64,000 nt of DNA, taken from contig NZ_RBWY01000002.1 in NCBI RefSeq assembly GCF_003634275.1, forward strand, positions 1 to 64,000, given 5' to 3'. Shown piece after piece: positions 38,188 through 47,777 of the stretch. The translations under genes were made by a program, and so were the position numbers. The notes under the pieces were generated by a model. It was not told where the DNA came from, searched no databases, and worked only from the letters and a program-made list of their open reading frames with translations. The stretch is from Orbus hercynius (GTDB lineage Bacteria; Pseudomonadota; Gammaproteobacteria; Enterobacterales; Orbaceae). Position 1 is the first letter of the stretch; every line of letters begins with the position of its first letter.

Positions 38188-38748
38188 ATGGTTTCCATTT
38201 TTTATATAGCGGCGATTATTACTGTTTTAGCAAGCATTAAAGCTATCAGTAGTACAAAATCAATGAGCGCCCTTTTATATTTTGTGATATCGCTTTTAGC
38301 AACCTCTGTGGTATTTTTCATCATGGGGGCATATTTCTCGGCAGCACTTATTGTCGTGTTATTTATCGGGGCGGTATCATTACTCTTTTTATCGGTGCTC
38401 TCATTAATTAATCTGCGCAAAGATATGGTTGAACAAAATAAGCATGGCATTAGCCCCAAAATATGGCTTGGTCCCCTTATTTTGGTTTTTGTGCTCTTTG
38501 TTACGTTAATTTATGGTATTGCAAGCAATGATTACAGCGCTTTGCAAACTAATCATAGCGATCGCACGACACTGACAGAGATGTTCTTAGGTCCTTATAT
38601 TCTGGTGATTGAATTAGCAATTTTATTGCTTTTATGTGGCCTTGTAATTGCGTATCATTTTATTTATCGTCTTTATATTCACAAAGAATCGCATTCACTT
38701 GCACAAGATGATCAGATCGAGGAGCAACATGATTCCACTAATGCATAG
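38188..38748 (+). CDS. nuoJ: NuoJ-like subunit of complex I membrane arm, variant
   Basis: The 186-residue protein (E. coli NuoJ 184) has five membrane segments and aligns without gaps over the first 70 residues. In complex I, segment 3 forms the pi-bulge helix beside the quinone/E-channel. The E. coli stretch ALEIIVYAGAI reads [11 protein letters not shown] here, so E55 is Ile and the conserved Y59 is Phe. It is the first gene of a J-K-L-M-N unit with its own promoter and overlaps nuoK by 20 bp. The family is clear; normal function is doubtful because of these changes and the missing partners. Confidence 0.88.
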
Positions 38749-39031
38749 CCTTATTCTCGCCACGACGCTCTTTGTTATCGGTTTATTTGGGGCAATGATT
38801 CGTCGTAATTTTCTTTTTTTACTATTAAGTTTAATGGTGATGATAAATGGTGCTTTAATCGCAATTGTTGCCGCTGGCGCATATTGGCAGCAACCAGATG
38901 GACAAATCATCTCAATTTTAGTTTTAAGTGCCGCCATCGCTGAGTCTTGTATTGGCCTTGCGTTATTAGTCAAAATGTTCCATCGCCGCAAAACAGTAAA
39001 CATTGATGCATTGAGTGAAATGAAAGGATGA
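38729..39031 (+). CDS. nuoK: NuoK-like subunit, lacking the key Glu36
   Basis: From ATG 38729, with GAGGAG before it, this is a 100-residue protein, exactly the E. coli NuoK length and collinear with it ([16 protein letters not shown] at the end). NuoK carries two buried glutamates of the proton path. E72 is kept ([12 protein letters not shown]), but E36 in GLEIMIN is Met here (SLMVMIN, codon ATG). E36 is the most conserved of the two in complex I. The reading frame is intact, and its stop overlaps the nuoL start (ATGA). Confidence 0.93.
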
Positions 39032-40875
39032 ATCTACTTTATTTAACAATTGTAATTCCACTACTATCTTTTTTAATATTGGTGTGCAGTGGCCGACATA
39101 TCAGCAAAAATAATATTATCATTATTGGAATTAGTACGATTATTTTATTGTGTATTTTAACAGTACTCGTTTGTATCGACTATCAAGCCAATACCGTACC
39201 CGATACCTCCTTAATTTACACTCGTTATTTATGGGAGTGGTTTACAGTCGGTGACACGAAGATCGCAATTGCTTTACAACTCGATGGTTTATCGTTAGTT
39301 TTTTTAGTAATTATTGCGTTTTTTAGTCTACTAATCTACAGTTTTTCTGCTTGTTATCTAACATCATCAAAGGACATTTATACTTTTTTTGCCTATGGTA
39401 ATTTACTTATTGCAAGCCTACTCTTACTAATATTAGCCGATAATTTATTTATATTATTAGTTGGCTGGGAAGGCATGGGCATTAGTTGCTATCTGTTGAT
39501 TGGTATCTATTATCAAAAACGGCAAGTCAGTTTTTCAGCCATCAAAGCATTTATTGTTATTAGTATCGCAGATGCGTTCTTACTATTAGGTATGTTTCTC
39601 ATTCATAATGAGCTGAATACATTGAATATTCGTGAGATAATCTCACTCGCCAATGAAAACTTAGCGATTGATTCGGAAATTATATTTTGGATAACACTGG
39701 TTCTATTCATTAGCGTGATGGGTAAAGCTGGATTATTCCCACTGCACACCAGCTTCACTGAAAGCTCAATTGCTCCGATGCCCGTTGTCACCATATTACA
39801 ATCGCTGGCTTTTGTACTATCAAGTGGGTACTTTGTATTAAGACTAAGCCCACTGTTTATGATGTCAACGGATGTGTTTGTCATAATGGGCGTGATGGCT
39901 GGTATCACACTGATTTTTGCAAGCTGTGTGTCGTTAGTACAAAATAATATTAAAACACTCGTTACTTATATTAACCTAGGTCAAATCAGTTACATTTTCT
40001 TTGCGTTTGTTATCAAAAACTGGGAACTGGCGCTCTATTATATGATTAGCTATAGTGTAACGAGTGCTTTATTATTACTATCAAGTGCCATTTTGATTAA
40101 AGTCAGCAATGGTGAGCAAAATATCTATAAACTTGGTGGATTATGCCGCCGTTATCCTGTTTTATATGGCACATTTTTATTATCTGCGGCCTCGCTCTGT
40201 GCAATGCCATGGATTATGTCTGCCTTTTACACCAAAGGAGATATTATTTGGGGACTAATGATTAATGACAAGATGGGCTTAGGTACCATAGCATTAATTG
40301 GTATTTTGCTCTCAACATTAAGTATATTGAGATTAATTTCTACCGTTTTTCATCACAAACAAAAACTGACATCTTTCACACCAATTTTGCCATATAGTTA
40401 TCTGCCTTTGGCAATTCTAGCAATTATGTCGACAGCTACTTTTGTTTATCTGCCATTACCAATTCAAGGACTGGTACCTAGTGTTGATTTTAATACTCAA
40501 AATCAACTCATTTTACAACTGTTATTAGCAGCGGTAACTATTTTGAGTATTCTCATTGCTTACATTCTATTTTTTGATACCAACTCTGAGATAAACGAGA
40601 TTATCCATACCCCGATTGGGAAAATGCTCTTTAGACTTTGGCATAATGAGTGGTGCTTTGATCAAATATTACAAATAGTCGTAATTCGTCCTTATCTTTA
40701 TTTGGCAAGATTAATTAAAACCGACCCGTTATCACAATGGAATCGAGCTATCAACTGGGGCGCAAGAAAGATCAATTTCCAAATTGCATCGCTAGAAAAT
40801 AGTCGATTACGCTGGTATATGATGTCGATTGTCATCGGCAGTATCATCATACTATTGTTACTTATTTTAATATAA
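39028..40875 (+). CDS. nuoL: NuoL-like antiporter subunit, proton-channel residues altered
   Basis: The 615-residue protein (E. coli NuoL 613) keeps the whole architecture: 14 antiporter segments, the long lateral helix and the final C-terminal segment ([11 protein letters not shown]). It keeps E148 (GWEG), K233 (GKAG), K309 (NNIKT) and K403 (AFYTKGD). It has lost the signature of segments 7-8, GPTPVSALIHAATMV, reading [15 protein letters not shown] with H254 to Gln. In HLMTHAFFKALLFL, now [14 protein letters not shown], both histidines become Tyr and K342 becomes Ser. Proton transfer through this subunit is therefore questionable. Confidence 0.92.
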
Positions 40876-40893
40876 TTTCAGAAGGGATTATCT

Positions 40894-42501
40894 GTGTTAT
40901 TTTGGCTTGTTTTTTTACCCTTATTAGGTGGATTCGTAGGATGGCTGCTTGAAGCGTATCTTCGTCACTCCTTTACGCAAATTGGGCAGTGTAAAATAGA
41001 ACATCGTAGTCGCTTCATTTTTTTAAATAAACTCAATAGTGAAGTTTGCCAATTTACGGCTAACTCGATTGCGTTATTAACCATGATTGCCGTTTTAGTA
41101 ATTATGTCTGTTTTAGGCTACGAGGCATTAACCGCTTTGCGACACGGACAAAACTGGAGCCTGCAAATCGATGTTAGTTGGATTGCCCTACTTGGTATAC
41201 GCTTTCATCTAGTACTTGATGGGCTGTCAATATTAATGAGTATGTTAAGTTGTATCGTTGTCACCATCGCGCTATTGTACTCTCGAAAAGAGATGCCTAA
41301 TAGCGCTGGATTGTTCTATTTTTGCCTACTATTTATGACATCAGCGGTGATGATGTTGTTTATGACTATGGATCTGTTTTTATGGTTTTTCCTGTGGGAA
41401 GCTGTCGCCATTCCGTTCTATTTTCTGATTACGCTATGGGGACAACGCGATACAAATAGCACTACCAATCCAAATGGTGCCAATAAATTTTTAATCTATA
41501 CGCAAGTGAGTAGTTTGTTTATGCTCCTTGCTATTATTTCTCTTGCGTTAGCCAACTGGCAACTAACTAATCAATGGACATTTGACTACTATGTCTTAAT
41601 GAAAACACCAATTTCAAGTTATCTTGAATTTATGATTATGCTAGGTTTTTTAGCCGCGCTTGTTGTCCGTCTACCGTTAGTTCCTTTTCATAACTGGTTT
41701 ATTGATGCCCATATTGAGTCTTCGACAACAGGCTCAATTATGATTAGCGGATTATTAGTCAATACCGCACTGTATGGTTTATTACGTTTTGTACTCCCGC
41801 TTTTCCCGAATGCCTCATTGACTATTGCACCGATCATGTCGATACTTGGACTACTAACGCTGTTTTATTCGACCTTGTTATGCTTTAGCCAAAGTGATAT
41901 TAAACGATTAATCGCTTATGTTCATATCGCGCTGATGAGTTTTATGACCGTTGTCATCTACAGTGGTTCACTGCTAGCTTATCAAGGCATTATTCTAGAA
42001 GTCGTGGCGATTACGTTCGTCATTAGCGGTTTATTTATCATTAGTGGTTTATTAGCCGAACGCTATCTAACGCGTAATATCCATCACTTTTTAGGCTTAA
42101 AAACACATGTTAAGTATTTATCTACCTTAACGTTGTTTTTTATATTATCAGTGTTAGGCATACCCGGAACCGCTAATTTTGTGGGTAATTTCATGGCGAT
42201 ATTTGGTAGTTACCAAAATTCAACTTACATCGCAGTTTTTCTTATTATTGGATTAATTTTGTTATCAATCTCGATCGTTGTACGGACTCAGCCAATTTTT
42301 TATGGCACTATCGATAAACCGTTATCAGACAAAAATCCAGTGTCATGTAAAGACTTATTTCTATTAATCATGATATTAATCATTTTAATTTTTATCGGTT
42401 TATATCCTCAATGGGTGCTTGATATGTCGTATCCTGACATTGATCAAATTCAAAAAATTATTAGTAGTGCGCAAACCAATCTCATCAAAGGGGATGTATA
42501 A
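40894..42501 (+). CDS. nuoM: NuoM-like antiporter subunit, proton-channel residues altered
   Basis: The 535-residue protein starts at GTG 40894 and has 14 membrane segments. It matches E. coli NuoM (509) along its length, with about 25 extra residues between segments 1 and 2. E144 is kept as E169 (FLWEAVAIPFYFLI). Other residues known to matter in E. coli are changed: K234 to Arg259, K265 to Asn290, H348 to Ile373 and E407 to Asn432 (FVGNFM for FVGEFM). The QAPTAGS motif reads ESSTTGS. The frame is open throughout, and it lies 18 bp after nuoL and 5 bp before nuoN. Confidence 0.92.
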   Translation: MLFWLVFLPLLGGFVGWLLEAYLRHSFTQIGQCKIEHRSRFIFLNKLNSEVCQFTANSIALLTMIAVLVIMSVLGYEALTALRHGQNWSLQIDVSWIALLGIRFHLVLDGLSILMSMLSCIVVTIALLYSRKEMPNSAGLFYFCLLFMTSAVMMLFMTMDLFLWFFLWEAVAIPFYFLITLWGQRDTNSTTNPNGANKFLIYTQVSSLFMLLAIISLALANWQLTNQWTFDYYVLMKTPISSYLEFMIMLGFLAALVVRLPLVPFHNWFIDAHIESSTTGSIMISGLLVNTALYGLLRFVLPLFPNASLTIAPIMSILGLLTLFYSTLLCFSQSDIKRLIAYVHIALMSFMTVVIYSGSLLAYQGIILEVVAITFVISGLFIISGLLAERYLTRNIHHFLGLKTHVKYLSTLTLFFILSVLGIPGTANFVGNFMAIFGSYQNSTYIAVFLIIGLILLSISIVVRTQPIFYGTIDKPLSDKNPVSCKDLFLLIMILIILIFIGLYPQWVLDMSYPDIDQIQKIISSAQTNLIKGDV

Positions 42502-42506
42502 CGATT

Positions 42507-44168
42507 ATGACGGCGATTACGACATCTGAACTAATCTATTTATTGCCGATCCTAATATTAGGTTTAGCAATTATTGTATTACTATTTTTATTGCTTTTAT
42601 TGCGTATTAATACCAAATTTGCAGCGCTATTTACCGTGGTTAGCTTAGCTATCGCGTTAAGCACATCCACATTTGTAGGCTATCAAATTATCGTTAATAC
42701 TGATAAACAACATGATACCATCATAGCGCCATTATCAGTACAAACCCAAAGCGCAGATGTGCTATCTACTGAGCTTGAGCTATATCCACCTGACCCAACG
42801 CCTGTTGCGCCAAGTTTAGCAATCAAACAAGCCAATCTCGTACAAGCTGAAGAGCATTTAGCAGTCTATTGGCAAGCCAGTTACGTCACGGCATTATTTA
42901 CAAGCGATGGTTATGGTGCGCTTTATACCAGCTTAGTGCTGATTCTTTCGATAATTGTATCAACACTCGCGCTCAACTGGTTTAAAAATGATGAAGAAAC
43001 CCATCACGGTTTATTCTATCTAATGATACTGTTCTCAGCACTCGGTGCGACAATTTTGATTTATGCCAGCCATTTAATGTCACTCTTTATTGGCATTGAG
43101 CTATTATCAATTCCAATTGTTGGACTTATTGGTTATCAATATCAGCGAAAATATGCATTAGAAGCAGCAATAAAATATATGGTACTTTCGGTTATATCAA
43201 CGACCTTTTTATTACTGGGTATTGCTTTTTATTATGCCGCAACTGGTGAGCTTACTTTTATCGGACTGAGTTTTCAGCTATCGACATTGTCTGCCCCAAG
43301 CACTTTATTATTGCTAGGAGTATGCTTGATGCTCGTTGGCATCGGTTTCAAACTTGCACTGTTCCCATTTCAACTTTGGTTACCTGATGTATACCAAGGC
43401 GCGCCAACTTGCATCGCATTATGGCTAACAACGGTGAGCAAAGTCGCCGTATTTTGCGCAGTTGCTAGGCTATTTCTGCTTGCACCGATTGTTAATAATG
43501 AAACGATTCGCATGATTATGGTTATCATGGCATTTTGTTCTATCATTTGGGGAAGCGTTTTTGCACTAAAACAGCAAAATATCAAACGTTTATTAGCGTA
43601 TTCGTCGATTACCCATTTTGGTTATTTATTGATTGCATTGATTTCAGTACAATATCAAGTGCTTGCATTAGAAACAATCGGCGTCTACCTTATCGGTTAT
43701 GTTTTAGCAAATATCTGTGTGTTATCCGTTATTAGTTTAGAATCGCGATCAACTGAAAAAGAAGAACAAGCACTCGACTTAAGCGGACTATTTTGGCGTA
43801 AACCCATCATAGCTTTAGCAATGGGGACAGGCTTACTCTCTTTAGCCGGAGTGCCACTAACGGTTGGGTTTATTGGTCAATTTTCACTCATTTTACTGGG
43901 CGTTACAGCCGAACTCTGGTGGCTTATTGGCGCAATAATTATCGGTAGTGCACTCGGGCTCTATTTCTATTTGCGTTTAGTGATTAGCTTATACATGAAA
44001 CCTACTCATATTAAGGTTAAACCATCAATTACTCTTTTTACACCTAAACGTATCGATATCAATGAGTTTTTTATTGTTGTTTCCGCGCTGCTGATTTTAC
44101 TCTGTGGAATCTATCCTAAGTGGTTATTTAATTTAGTCAGTGTTGCACAATATTTATCACCAAATTAA
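42507..44168 (+). CDS. nuoN: NuoN-like antiporter subunit with an inserted loop
   Basis: At 553 residues it is longer than E. coli NuoN (485); an insert of about 65 residues, rich in Pro, Gln and acidic residues (about 65-130), lies after the second membrane segment. It is the least altered of the antiporter-like subunits: E198 (GIELLSIP), K282 (GFKLALFPF), K312 (VSKVAVF) and H370 (SSITHFGYL) are present, and DVYQGAP is intact. K395 of E. coli, the exit lysine in FIGKF, is Gln458 (FIGQF), and PFHLW reads PFQLW. It is the last gene of the unit. Confidence 0.92.
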   Translation: MTAITTSELIYLLPILILGLAIIVLLFLLLLLRINTKFAALFTVVSLAIALSTSTFVGYQIIVNTDKQHDTIIAPLSVQTQSADVLSTELELYPPDPTPVAPSLAIKQANLVQAEEHLAVYWQASYVTALFTSDGYGALYTSLVLILSIIVSTLALNWFKNDEETHHGLFYLMILFSALGATILIYASHLMSLFIGIELLSIPIVGLIGYQYQRKYALEAAIKYMVLSVISTTFLLLGIAFYYAATGELTFIGLSFQLSTLSAPSTLLLLGVCLMLVGIGFKLALFPFQLWLPDVYQGAPTCIALWLTTVSKVAVFCAVARLFLLAPIVNNETIRMIMVIMAFCSIIWGSVFALKQQNIKRLLAYSSITHFGYLLIALISVQYQVLALETIGVYLIGYVLANICVLSVISLESRSTEKEEQALDLSGLFWRKPIIALAMGTGLLSLAGVPLTVGFIGQFSLILLGVTAELWWLIGAIIIGSALGLYFYLRLVISLYMKPTHIKVKPSITLFTPKRIDINEFFIVVSALLILLCGIYPKWLFNLVSVAQYLSPN

Positions 44169-44211
44169 GCTAGAACATAAGACTCAATAGCATCTTTATG
44201 CTAAATAAGGA

Positions 44212-44220
44212 TGCTATAAT
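44212..44220 (+). promoter_or_regulatory. Extended -10 promoter of yajC-secDF
   Basis: TGC followed by a perfect TATAAT gives an extended -10 element 68 bp before yajC. A hairpin (TAGCATC 44188-44194 / GATGCTA 44210-44216) overlaps it and may partly terminate the nuo transcript. No good -35 is present. Confidence 0.55.
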
Positions 44221-47701: not shown

Positions 47702-47777
47702 GGGGCCATAGCTCAGCTGGGAGAGCGCAACGCTGGCAGCGTTGAGGTCAGGGGTTCGATCCCCCTTGGCTCCACCA
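47702..47777 (+). tRNA. tRNA-Ala (anticodon GGC)
   Basis: The 76-nt cloverleaf is complete: acceptor GGGGCCA / TGGCTCC, D arm GCTC-AGCTGGGA-GAGC, anticodon stem CAACG / CGTTG with loop CTGGCAG (anticodon GGC), T arm GGGGTTCGATCCCC and an encoded CCA. It reads GCC and GCU. Its 3' end is repeated at 49431, so it served as an integration site. Confidence 0.97.

Follow-up and report, generated by a model that had tools for sequence, protein, structure and literature searches.

The genes for the membrane arm of Escherichia coli complex I (NDH-1), nuoJ, nuoK, nuoL, nuoM, and nuoN, are also those of the locus described here and are arranged identically in both. The subunits of this arm have counterparts in Mrp (CPA3) antiporters: as described in PMC7419157, NuoL corresponds to the N-terminal part of MrpA, both NuoM and NuoN correspond to MrpD, NuoK corresponds to MrpC, and NuoJ corresponds to the C-terminal part of MrpA. 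MrpA and MrpD of Bacillus subtilis are reported to be replaceable by NuoL and, in certain settings, by NuoN of E. coli (PMC4938563). There is disagreement over what the individual antiporter-like subunits contribute to complex I.

An orphan nuoJKLMN, the same locus as that analyzed here, has already been published for Gilliamella, where only these five of the 14 complex I genes are reported, and across the Orbaceae; PMC11325843 interprets it as perhaps left over from genome reduction. Full-text literature matches for nuoJKLMN consisted of that paper and one on Streptomyces; the Tn-Seq study in PMC5727410 concerns Snodgrassella.

Locus and distribution in the Orbaceae

The whole stretch of DNA that was analyzed (the window) comprises bases 1 to 64000 of contig C2 of a 2.36-Mb genome and has a G+C content of 38.8%. 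The Orbaceae, to which this genome belongs, are a family of animal-gut bacteria. The open reading frame (ORF) list and a profile search placed nuoJKLMN at 38188-44168 on the + strand, in the order J-K-L-M-N, next to a gene which we take to be ppc on one side and what are presumably yajC, secD, and secF on the other.

38188..38748, + strand: nuoJ, 186 aa; best NuoJ model at 146.1 bits, below the cutoff of 157
38729..39031, + strand: nuoK, 100 aa from this start; passes its curated NCBIfam cutoff
39028..40875, + strand: nuoL, 615 aa; TIGR01974 at 369.2 bits, below the cutoff of 407.5
40894..42501, + strand: nuoM, 535 aa, GTG start; TIGR01972 (NDH_I_M) at 363.7 bits, above the cutoff of 263.8
42507..44168, + strand: nuoN, 553 aa; passes its curated NCBIfam cutoff
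44187..44217, + strand: terminator-like hairpin 3' of nuoN, no evidence by itself

The best matches of NuoL and NuoJ were to their own families, yet their scores fell under the curated NCBIfam cutoffs. The nuoM frame is open over 535 codons, and its product missed the cutoff of the narrower equivalog NF004498 (428.8 versus 614). An AlphaFold2 single-chain model of this protein (mean pLDDT of 88.9, pTM of 0.89) had E. coli NuoM as its best PDB match (TM scores of 0.89 and 0.94); by the family cutoff and the fold match, the ORF at 40894-42501 is NuoM. Terminator-like hairpins in the region numbered 4, against 5.1 expected in shuffles. Across the window, Rfam at gathering thresholds returned nothing beyond one tRNA (47702-47774, just 3' of the secF-like ORF), and a search of plasmid records gave no near match. 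Among 20 other stretches from the family, nuoN was followed by a YajC match in 18, and nuoJ was preceded by a PPC match in 14.

NuoM was present in 42 of 44 Orbaceae genomes, including all 39 of those that were at least 90% complete; named relatives encoding it are Gilliamella, Frischella, and “Candidatus Schmidhempelia.” NuoF (PF10589) had no match in any of the 44 genomes, the window genome included, and neither NuoD (PF00346) nor NuoH (PF00146) had a match in 39 of the 44, the window genome among them. The same five genomes (G012, G013, G031, G039, and G040, from two genera) gave both NuoD and NuoH matches; since extra antiporter-like genes lie close by, we take these NuoD- and NuoH-like genes to belong perhaps to a hydrogenase-type complex, e.g., of the hydrogenase-4 or formate-hydrogenlyase type. 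In a sample of 119 genomes from the order, a NuoF domain accompanied NuoM (E values up to 1e-60) in 34/34 non-Orbaceae genomes with NuoM, whereas the 6 Orbaceae in that sample all had NuoM and none had a NuoF domain. Elsewhere in the order, a 1.0-Mb genome (G104, stretch L086) contained a NuoM match with one in-frame TGA.

FrdC was detected in 43 of the 44 Orbaceae genomes. In the window genome, it lies with a small following ORF on contig C3 (L152:3906-4730); we take the small ORF to be FrdD and the flanking ORFs to be dapD and manA. No FrdA or FrdB was found among the ORFs listed around FrdC. The FrdC/FrdD-like pair is another membrane anchor that stands apart from its redox partners, and an orphan Frd membrane anchor is likewise reported in PMC11325843.

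Purifying selection and fixed replacements in the membrane arm

All five nuoJKLMN frames were intact and full length in 42/42 genomes from five genera, and in each of these genomes nuoK and nuoL overlap by 4 bases. Pairwise dN/dS was calculated from unsaturated pairs only (dS of 0.1 to 0.8), which share genomes and are therefore not independent. The median values were 0.078 for NuoM (63 pairs; highest pair, 0.143), 0.076 for NuoK (66 pairs), 0.10 for NuoL (34 pairs), 0.111 for NuoN (43 pairs), and 0.115 for NuoJ (96 of 861 pairs), compared to 0.055 for SecD (57 of 595 pairs) and 0.042 for PPC (33 of 561 pairs) as controls. Thus, NuoM and NuoK had values about 1.4 to 1.9 times those of the controls, and NuoL, NuoN, and NuoJ had values 1.8 to 2.7 times as high; the highest single pairs for NuoJ, NuoK, and NuoN reached 0.25 to 0.28. 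Every unsaturated pair for NuoM, NuoL, NuoN, SecD, and PPC was within Gilliamella. Among four Orbus genomes, NuoM had a dN of 0.065 to 0.193 and a dS of 0.83 to 2.32, giving ratios that were low, with dS mostly saturated. The nuoJKLMN genes are under purifying selection, as measured in Gilliamella and consistent with the values in Orbus. Scattered decay with a dN/dS near 1, against which a preliminary description of this DNA had set its reading of NuoM, is at odds with the NuoM median, and plain decay to pseudogenes was rejected for the five genes as a whole (frames intact in 42/42 genomes, medians of 0.08 to 0.12, and no single pair above 0.28).

To place individual residues, we aligned 63 NuoM proteins and used E. 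coli numbering throughout. The alignment contained all 42 Orbaceae NuoM proteins (from the 44 family genomes, window included) and 21 outgroups, namely, E. coli and 20 genomes of the same order, every one with a NuoF domain. The features discussed below are as follows.

41398..41400, + strand: NuoM E144 (residue 169), kept in 42/42 Orbaceae; E in 21/21 outgroups
41668..41670, + strand: NuoM K234 replaced by R (residue 259); R in 42/42 Orbaceae, K in 21/21 outgroups
41761..41763, + strand: NuoM K265 replaced by N (residue 290); N in 31, T in 6, S in 4, and G in 1 of the Orbaceae, K in 21/21 outgroups
41923..41934, + strand: NuoM S319 replaced by H (residue 344) and H322 replaced by L (residue 347), in 41/42 and 42/42 Orbaceae, respectively
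42010..42012, + strand: NuoM H348 replaced by I (residue 373); I in 36, V in 5, and M in 1 of the Orbaceae, H in 20/21 outgroups
42187..42189, + strand: NuoM E407 replaced by N (residue 432); N in 42/42 Orbaceae, E in 21/21 outgroups
40948..41097, + strand: NuoM extension (window residues 19 to 68), aligned to E. coli residues 20 to 40
42660..42923, + strand: NuoN acidic low-complexity stretch (window residues 52 to 139), aligned to E. coli residues 50 to 75

The alignment confirmed the K234R, K265N, H348I, and E407N replacements and the retention of E144 and the DIKRLIAY motif that had been noted for the window protein, and it revealed two further changes, H322L (H in 21/21 outgroups) and, three residues upstream of H322, S319H. 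H322 is reported to sit on a K265-H322-E407 route (PMC9271201, PMC13324432). The proton-path residues K265, H322, H348, and E407 are thus all replaced in the window, while E144, H241, and K312 are each kept in 42/42 Orbaceae. Within the family, 109 of 501 NuoM positions are invariant; these include R234 (encoded by four different Arg codons), L322, and N407 but not the positions of K265 and H348, so that only some of the four originally noted replacements are fixed. R234, L322, and N407 are therefore a trait of the clade (42/42) rather than of the window alone.

In the NuoM tree, the Orbaceae formed one clade (aLRT, 100), whose stem was long (1.23 substitutions per site) and whose mean crown depth was 0.91; its sister was an 11-member clade that includes E. 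coli. Because the Orbaceae proteins form a single clade and share R234, L322, and N407 without exception, these fixed changes most simply predate the split of the five genera; being common to every Orbaceae genome seen, they may have arisen either before or after nuoA-I disappeared. A foreign origin was unsupported, as Orbaceae NuoM, NuoL, and NuoN all adjoin the clade holding E. coli. The tree of the short NuoK protein placed the Orbaceae beside a single outgroup, G047.

Two loops are extended throughout the family. The stretch of NuoM that corresponds to E. coli residues 20 to 40 is 34 to 53 aa long in 42/42 Orbaceae and 19 to 23 aa long in 21/21 outgroups, and the NuoN stretch corresponding to E. 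coli residues 50 to 75 is acidic and 85 to 233 aa long in 42/42 Orbaceae, versus 25 to 28 aa in 21/21 outgroups. In one Gilliamella genome (G022), the NuoN acidic stretch includes a run of NT repeats. Together with S319H and the fixed R and N residues, the family-wide extensions may be signs of a new role.

The preliminary description had also regarded NuoL and NuoK as altered in parallel, which was correct for only part of each path. In the window, NuoL carries R175S, H254Q, H334Y, H338Y, K342S, and D400G. Across the 42 Orbaceae, H338Y was found in 42, D400G in 41, K342S in 40, and H254Q in 39, with H334 replaced by C, Y, or F and R175 replaced by H, S, or C in all 42; R175 is reported to bridge NuoM E407 and NuoL E144 (PMC13324432). 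The window NuoL nevertheless keeps E144, D178, K229, K305, and K399, which were retained in 39, 42, 40, 42, and 41 of the 42 genomes, respectively, ruling out the notion that NuoL has lost everything. NuoK E36, which is reported to take up the proton from the quinone side (PMC13324432), is M in the window (38834-38836) and M, I, or V in 42/42 Orbaceae, but NuoK E72 is kept in the window (38942-38944); 25 of the 42 genomes have E at this position, and 17 have Q. NuoJ Y59 is F in 42/42 Orbaceae and Y in 20/20 outgroups. NuoN retains E133, K217, K247, and K295 in 42/42 Orbaceae and H305 in 38/42, including the window; its K395 (43878-43880) is R in 41/42 and Q in the window genome alone.

Of the positions invariant among the outgroups, 41/52 in NuoN, 47/92 in NuoM, and 16/53 in NuoL were still the same and invariant in the Orbaceae, so that constraint falls from NuoN to NuoL; the corresponding values were 7/14 for NuoK and 4/20 for NuoJ. 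We looked for an enrichment of path residues among the changed sites and did not find a significant one: 12 of 26 outgroup-invariant path residues were changed, versus 56 of 205 other sites (Fisher's exact test, P = 0.066), and the values for NuoM alone were 5/9 and 23/83 (P = 0.125). Special targeting of path residues is thus a trend, at most a mild bias, and the four NuoM changes accordingly belong to a wide-ranging remodeling of the arm. Where the losses fall within NuoM and NuoL is more uneven. Residues on the cytoplasmic side were kept in 8/9 cases (NuoM E144, H241, H248, and K312 and NuoL E144, D178, K229, and K305; the exception is NuoM K234), whereas only one of nine central-to-exit residues, NuoL K399, was kept (NuoM K265, H322, H348, and E407 and NuoL H334, H338, K342, and D400 were changed). 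This split (P = 0.003) leaves out NuoL H254 and R175, was drawn after the data had been seen, and used hand-typed counts, so it is descriptive only. The side that each loop faces is our own assignment, and neighbors within the complex are assumed to be those given in the E. coli papers. As judged by residue identity, the losses in NuoM and NuoL center on the half path from the central lysine to the periplasm, with NuoK E36 in addition, while the region of the ion pair is kept in both NuoM and NuoL and the NuoN path is nearly complete.

Did the arm, then, lose proton transfer in a concerted manner, as was originally proposed? The proposal holds only in part. Several path residues are indeed replaced together in an intact NuoM, with parallels in NuoL and NuoK, and the joint replacement of the central lysine (K265), H322, H348, and the distal acid (E407) should block the NuoM route from the center to the periplasm. 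However, the NuoN ion pair and central lysine are kept in 42/42 genomes, indicating that proton transfer was not lost throughout the arm; moreover, the K265 and H348 positions vary within the family, and the path enrichment was not significant. The supporting statement that single changes at K234 and E407 strongly reduce activity in E. coli was too strong for E407, as the NuoM E407K mutant is reported to keep ~83% of NADH oxidase activity and ~75% of the protons pumped per electron (PMC9271201; the replacement in the Orbaceae is E407N). For NuoM K234, no mutant data were found in the literature searched; K217R in E. coli NuoN, which matches NuoM K234, is reported to keep 88% of pumping and 58% of NADH oxidase activity (PMC13073174). 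Given these effects of E407K and K217R, no single NuoM change described here proves a loss. Nor is NuoN untouched, since its K395 is replaced and E. coli K395A is reported to be severe (PMC13073174).

Possible functions of the retained arm

We tentatively favor a reading that seems plausible though still short of probable: that nuoJKLMN encodes a redox-free remainder of complex I, maintained by selection, in which NuoM and NuoL may have been decommissioned, NuoN may serve as a conduit, and the role may be one of slow exchange or pH homeostasis. “Redox-free” here refers to the searches for NuoD, NuoH, and NuoF and to the gene list as reported in PMC11325843. The genes would have been inherited family-wide by the Orbaceae, and the five proteins would still assemble as a membrane complex. 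Once the NADH and quinone modules had been lost, a proton conduit left without a drive would let the proton gradient run down, and such a leak would favor changes that shut NuoM and NuoL on their exit side as well as removal of the glutamate at which NuoK receives the quinone signal. NuoM and NuoL would then be structural pseudo-antiporters sealed to protons, and any remaining ion transport would rest with NuoN alone, which is placed with NuoK and NuoJ as MrpD is with MrpC and the C-terminal part of MrpA. The least certain step is the last, in which the complex would most likely serve in slow cation/proton exchange or in pH homeostasis.

Several observations count against this redox-free complex with a NuoN conduit. 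Path residues were not lost significantly more often than other invariant positions; NuoN may not fully work with Q or R in place of K395; NuoL K399 (41/42) and an ion pair kept in most genomes fit poorly with a fully closed NuoL; the K265 and H348 positions vary, as relaxed constraint would have it; dN/dS values exceed those of the controls; dS in Orbus, the genus of the window, is mostly saturated; and NuoL and NuoJ score under their curated NCBIfam cutoffs. In addition, the window genome encodes two PF00999 exchangers, so that no vacant antiporter role is evident, and we dropped the idea that nuoJKLMN is the sole Na+/H+ antiporter. One of the two is presumably a CPA1 exchanger (L150), and the other is presumably a YbaL-like transporter (L151). 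The window genome had no NhaA, NhaB, or Rnf/Nqr membrane subunit family match.

A pure scaffold, i.e., an ion-inert membrane complex that offers a structural or docking platform to, for example, another membrane enzyme or the adjoining SecDF, is somewhat unlikely. NuoM and NuoK, and in the window NuoN as well, have had distal charged residues removed or replaced; a partner could dock on the acidic loop of NuoN; and a YajC match follows nuoN in most of the family stretches. A passive platform has no obvious need, however, for the NuoN ion pair and central lysine, for NuoM E144, H241, and K312, or for NuoL D178 and K305, each conserved in 42/42 genomes, and 2 of the 20 stretches have no YajC match beside nuoN.

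It is improbable that the N, S, T, and R replacements made the path carry Na+ or K+ instead of protons, leaving NuoM an active channel. Several of the replacements are polar (N, R, S, and H), R234 and N407 occur in 42/42 genomes, and the window genome is without an NhaA or NhaB match; against this, the replacements at H322 (L), H348 (I, V, or M), and NuoK E36 (M, I, or V) are hydrophobic, the K265 position varies, and two PF00999 exchangers are present. We find it still harder to credit a redox pump that receives electrons in trans from a hydrogenase-type module, NDH-2, or the orphan FrdCD. NuoD- and NuoH-like genes do exist in 5/44 genomes, FrdC exists in 43/44, the window genome has an FrdD-like ORF but no FrdA or FrdB among the neighboring ORFs, and ndh is reported in all 95 Gilliamella (PMC11325843), but 39/44 genomes lack a NuoD or NuoH match, the five that have them also have their own antiporter-like genes, and NuoK E36, the reported quinone-side proton acceptor (PMC13324432), is lost in 42/42.

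The reading to which we give the least credence is the published one for Gilliamella and other Orbaceae (PMC11325843), that nuoJKLMN is functionless leftover DNA: the tested redox subunits are absent, 45 of 92 outgroup-invariant NuoM positions have changed or become variable in the Orbaceae, and dN/dS exceeds that of SecD and PPC, but five frames intact in 42/42 genomes of five genera, median dN/dS values of 0.08 to 0.12 across the five genes, 109/501 invariant NuoM positions, and fixed new residues with loop extensions all speak against it. The orphan locus was already known; the purifying selection, the fixed path replacements, and the loop extensions shown here argue against a remnant. The locus looks like a reused part rather than a genetic leftover, which calls the published reading into question and points to an unexplained, family-wide aspect of Orbaceae physiology. 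Furthermore, a selected five-subunit arm without a redox drive, in which one path is kept and two are altered, is a natural test of residue roles and could separate the residues that conduct ions from those that hold the arm together.

Comparison with complex I and Mrp antiporters

Compared to E. coli NDH-1, the window lacks NuoD, NuoH, and NuoF matches, its NuoM carries K234R, K265N, H322L, H348I, and E407N, NuoK E36 is lost, and the NuoM and NuoN loops are extended, as they are in the Orbaceae generally. Compared to Mrp, the family models of the window proteins and the fold of NuoM are of the complex I type, and no further Mrp-like gene (MrpB, -E, -F, or -G) was recognized among the ORFs listed beside the operon. 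In the region of NuoK E36, Mrp is described as having conserved histidines where complex I has glutamates (PMC7419157); Orbaceae NuoK has M, I, or V at position 36 and E or Q at position 72, neither being histidine. A doubtful extension of these comparisons is that complex I evolution was here run in reverse, giving a stand-alone, Mrp-like ion machine with NuoN as its channel, NuoM and NuoL sealed toward the periplasm, and new loops for partners. The retained nuoJKLMN set matches the Mrp core and, like it, stands without redox subunits, and it is these counterparts, together with the reported replacement of MrpA and MrpD by NuoL and NuoN, that lead us to favor a redox-free complex in which NuoN may be the conduit.
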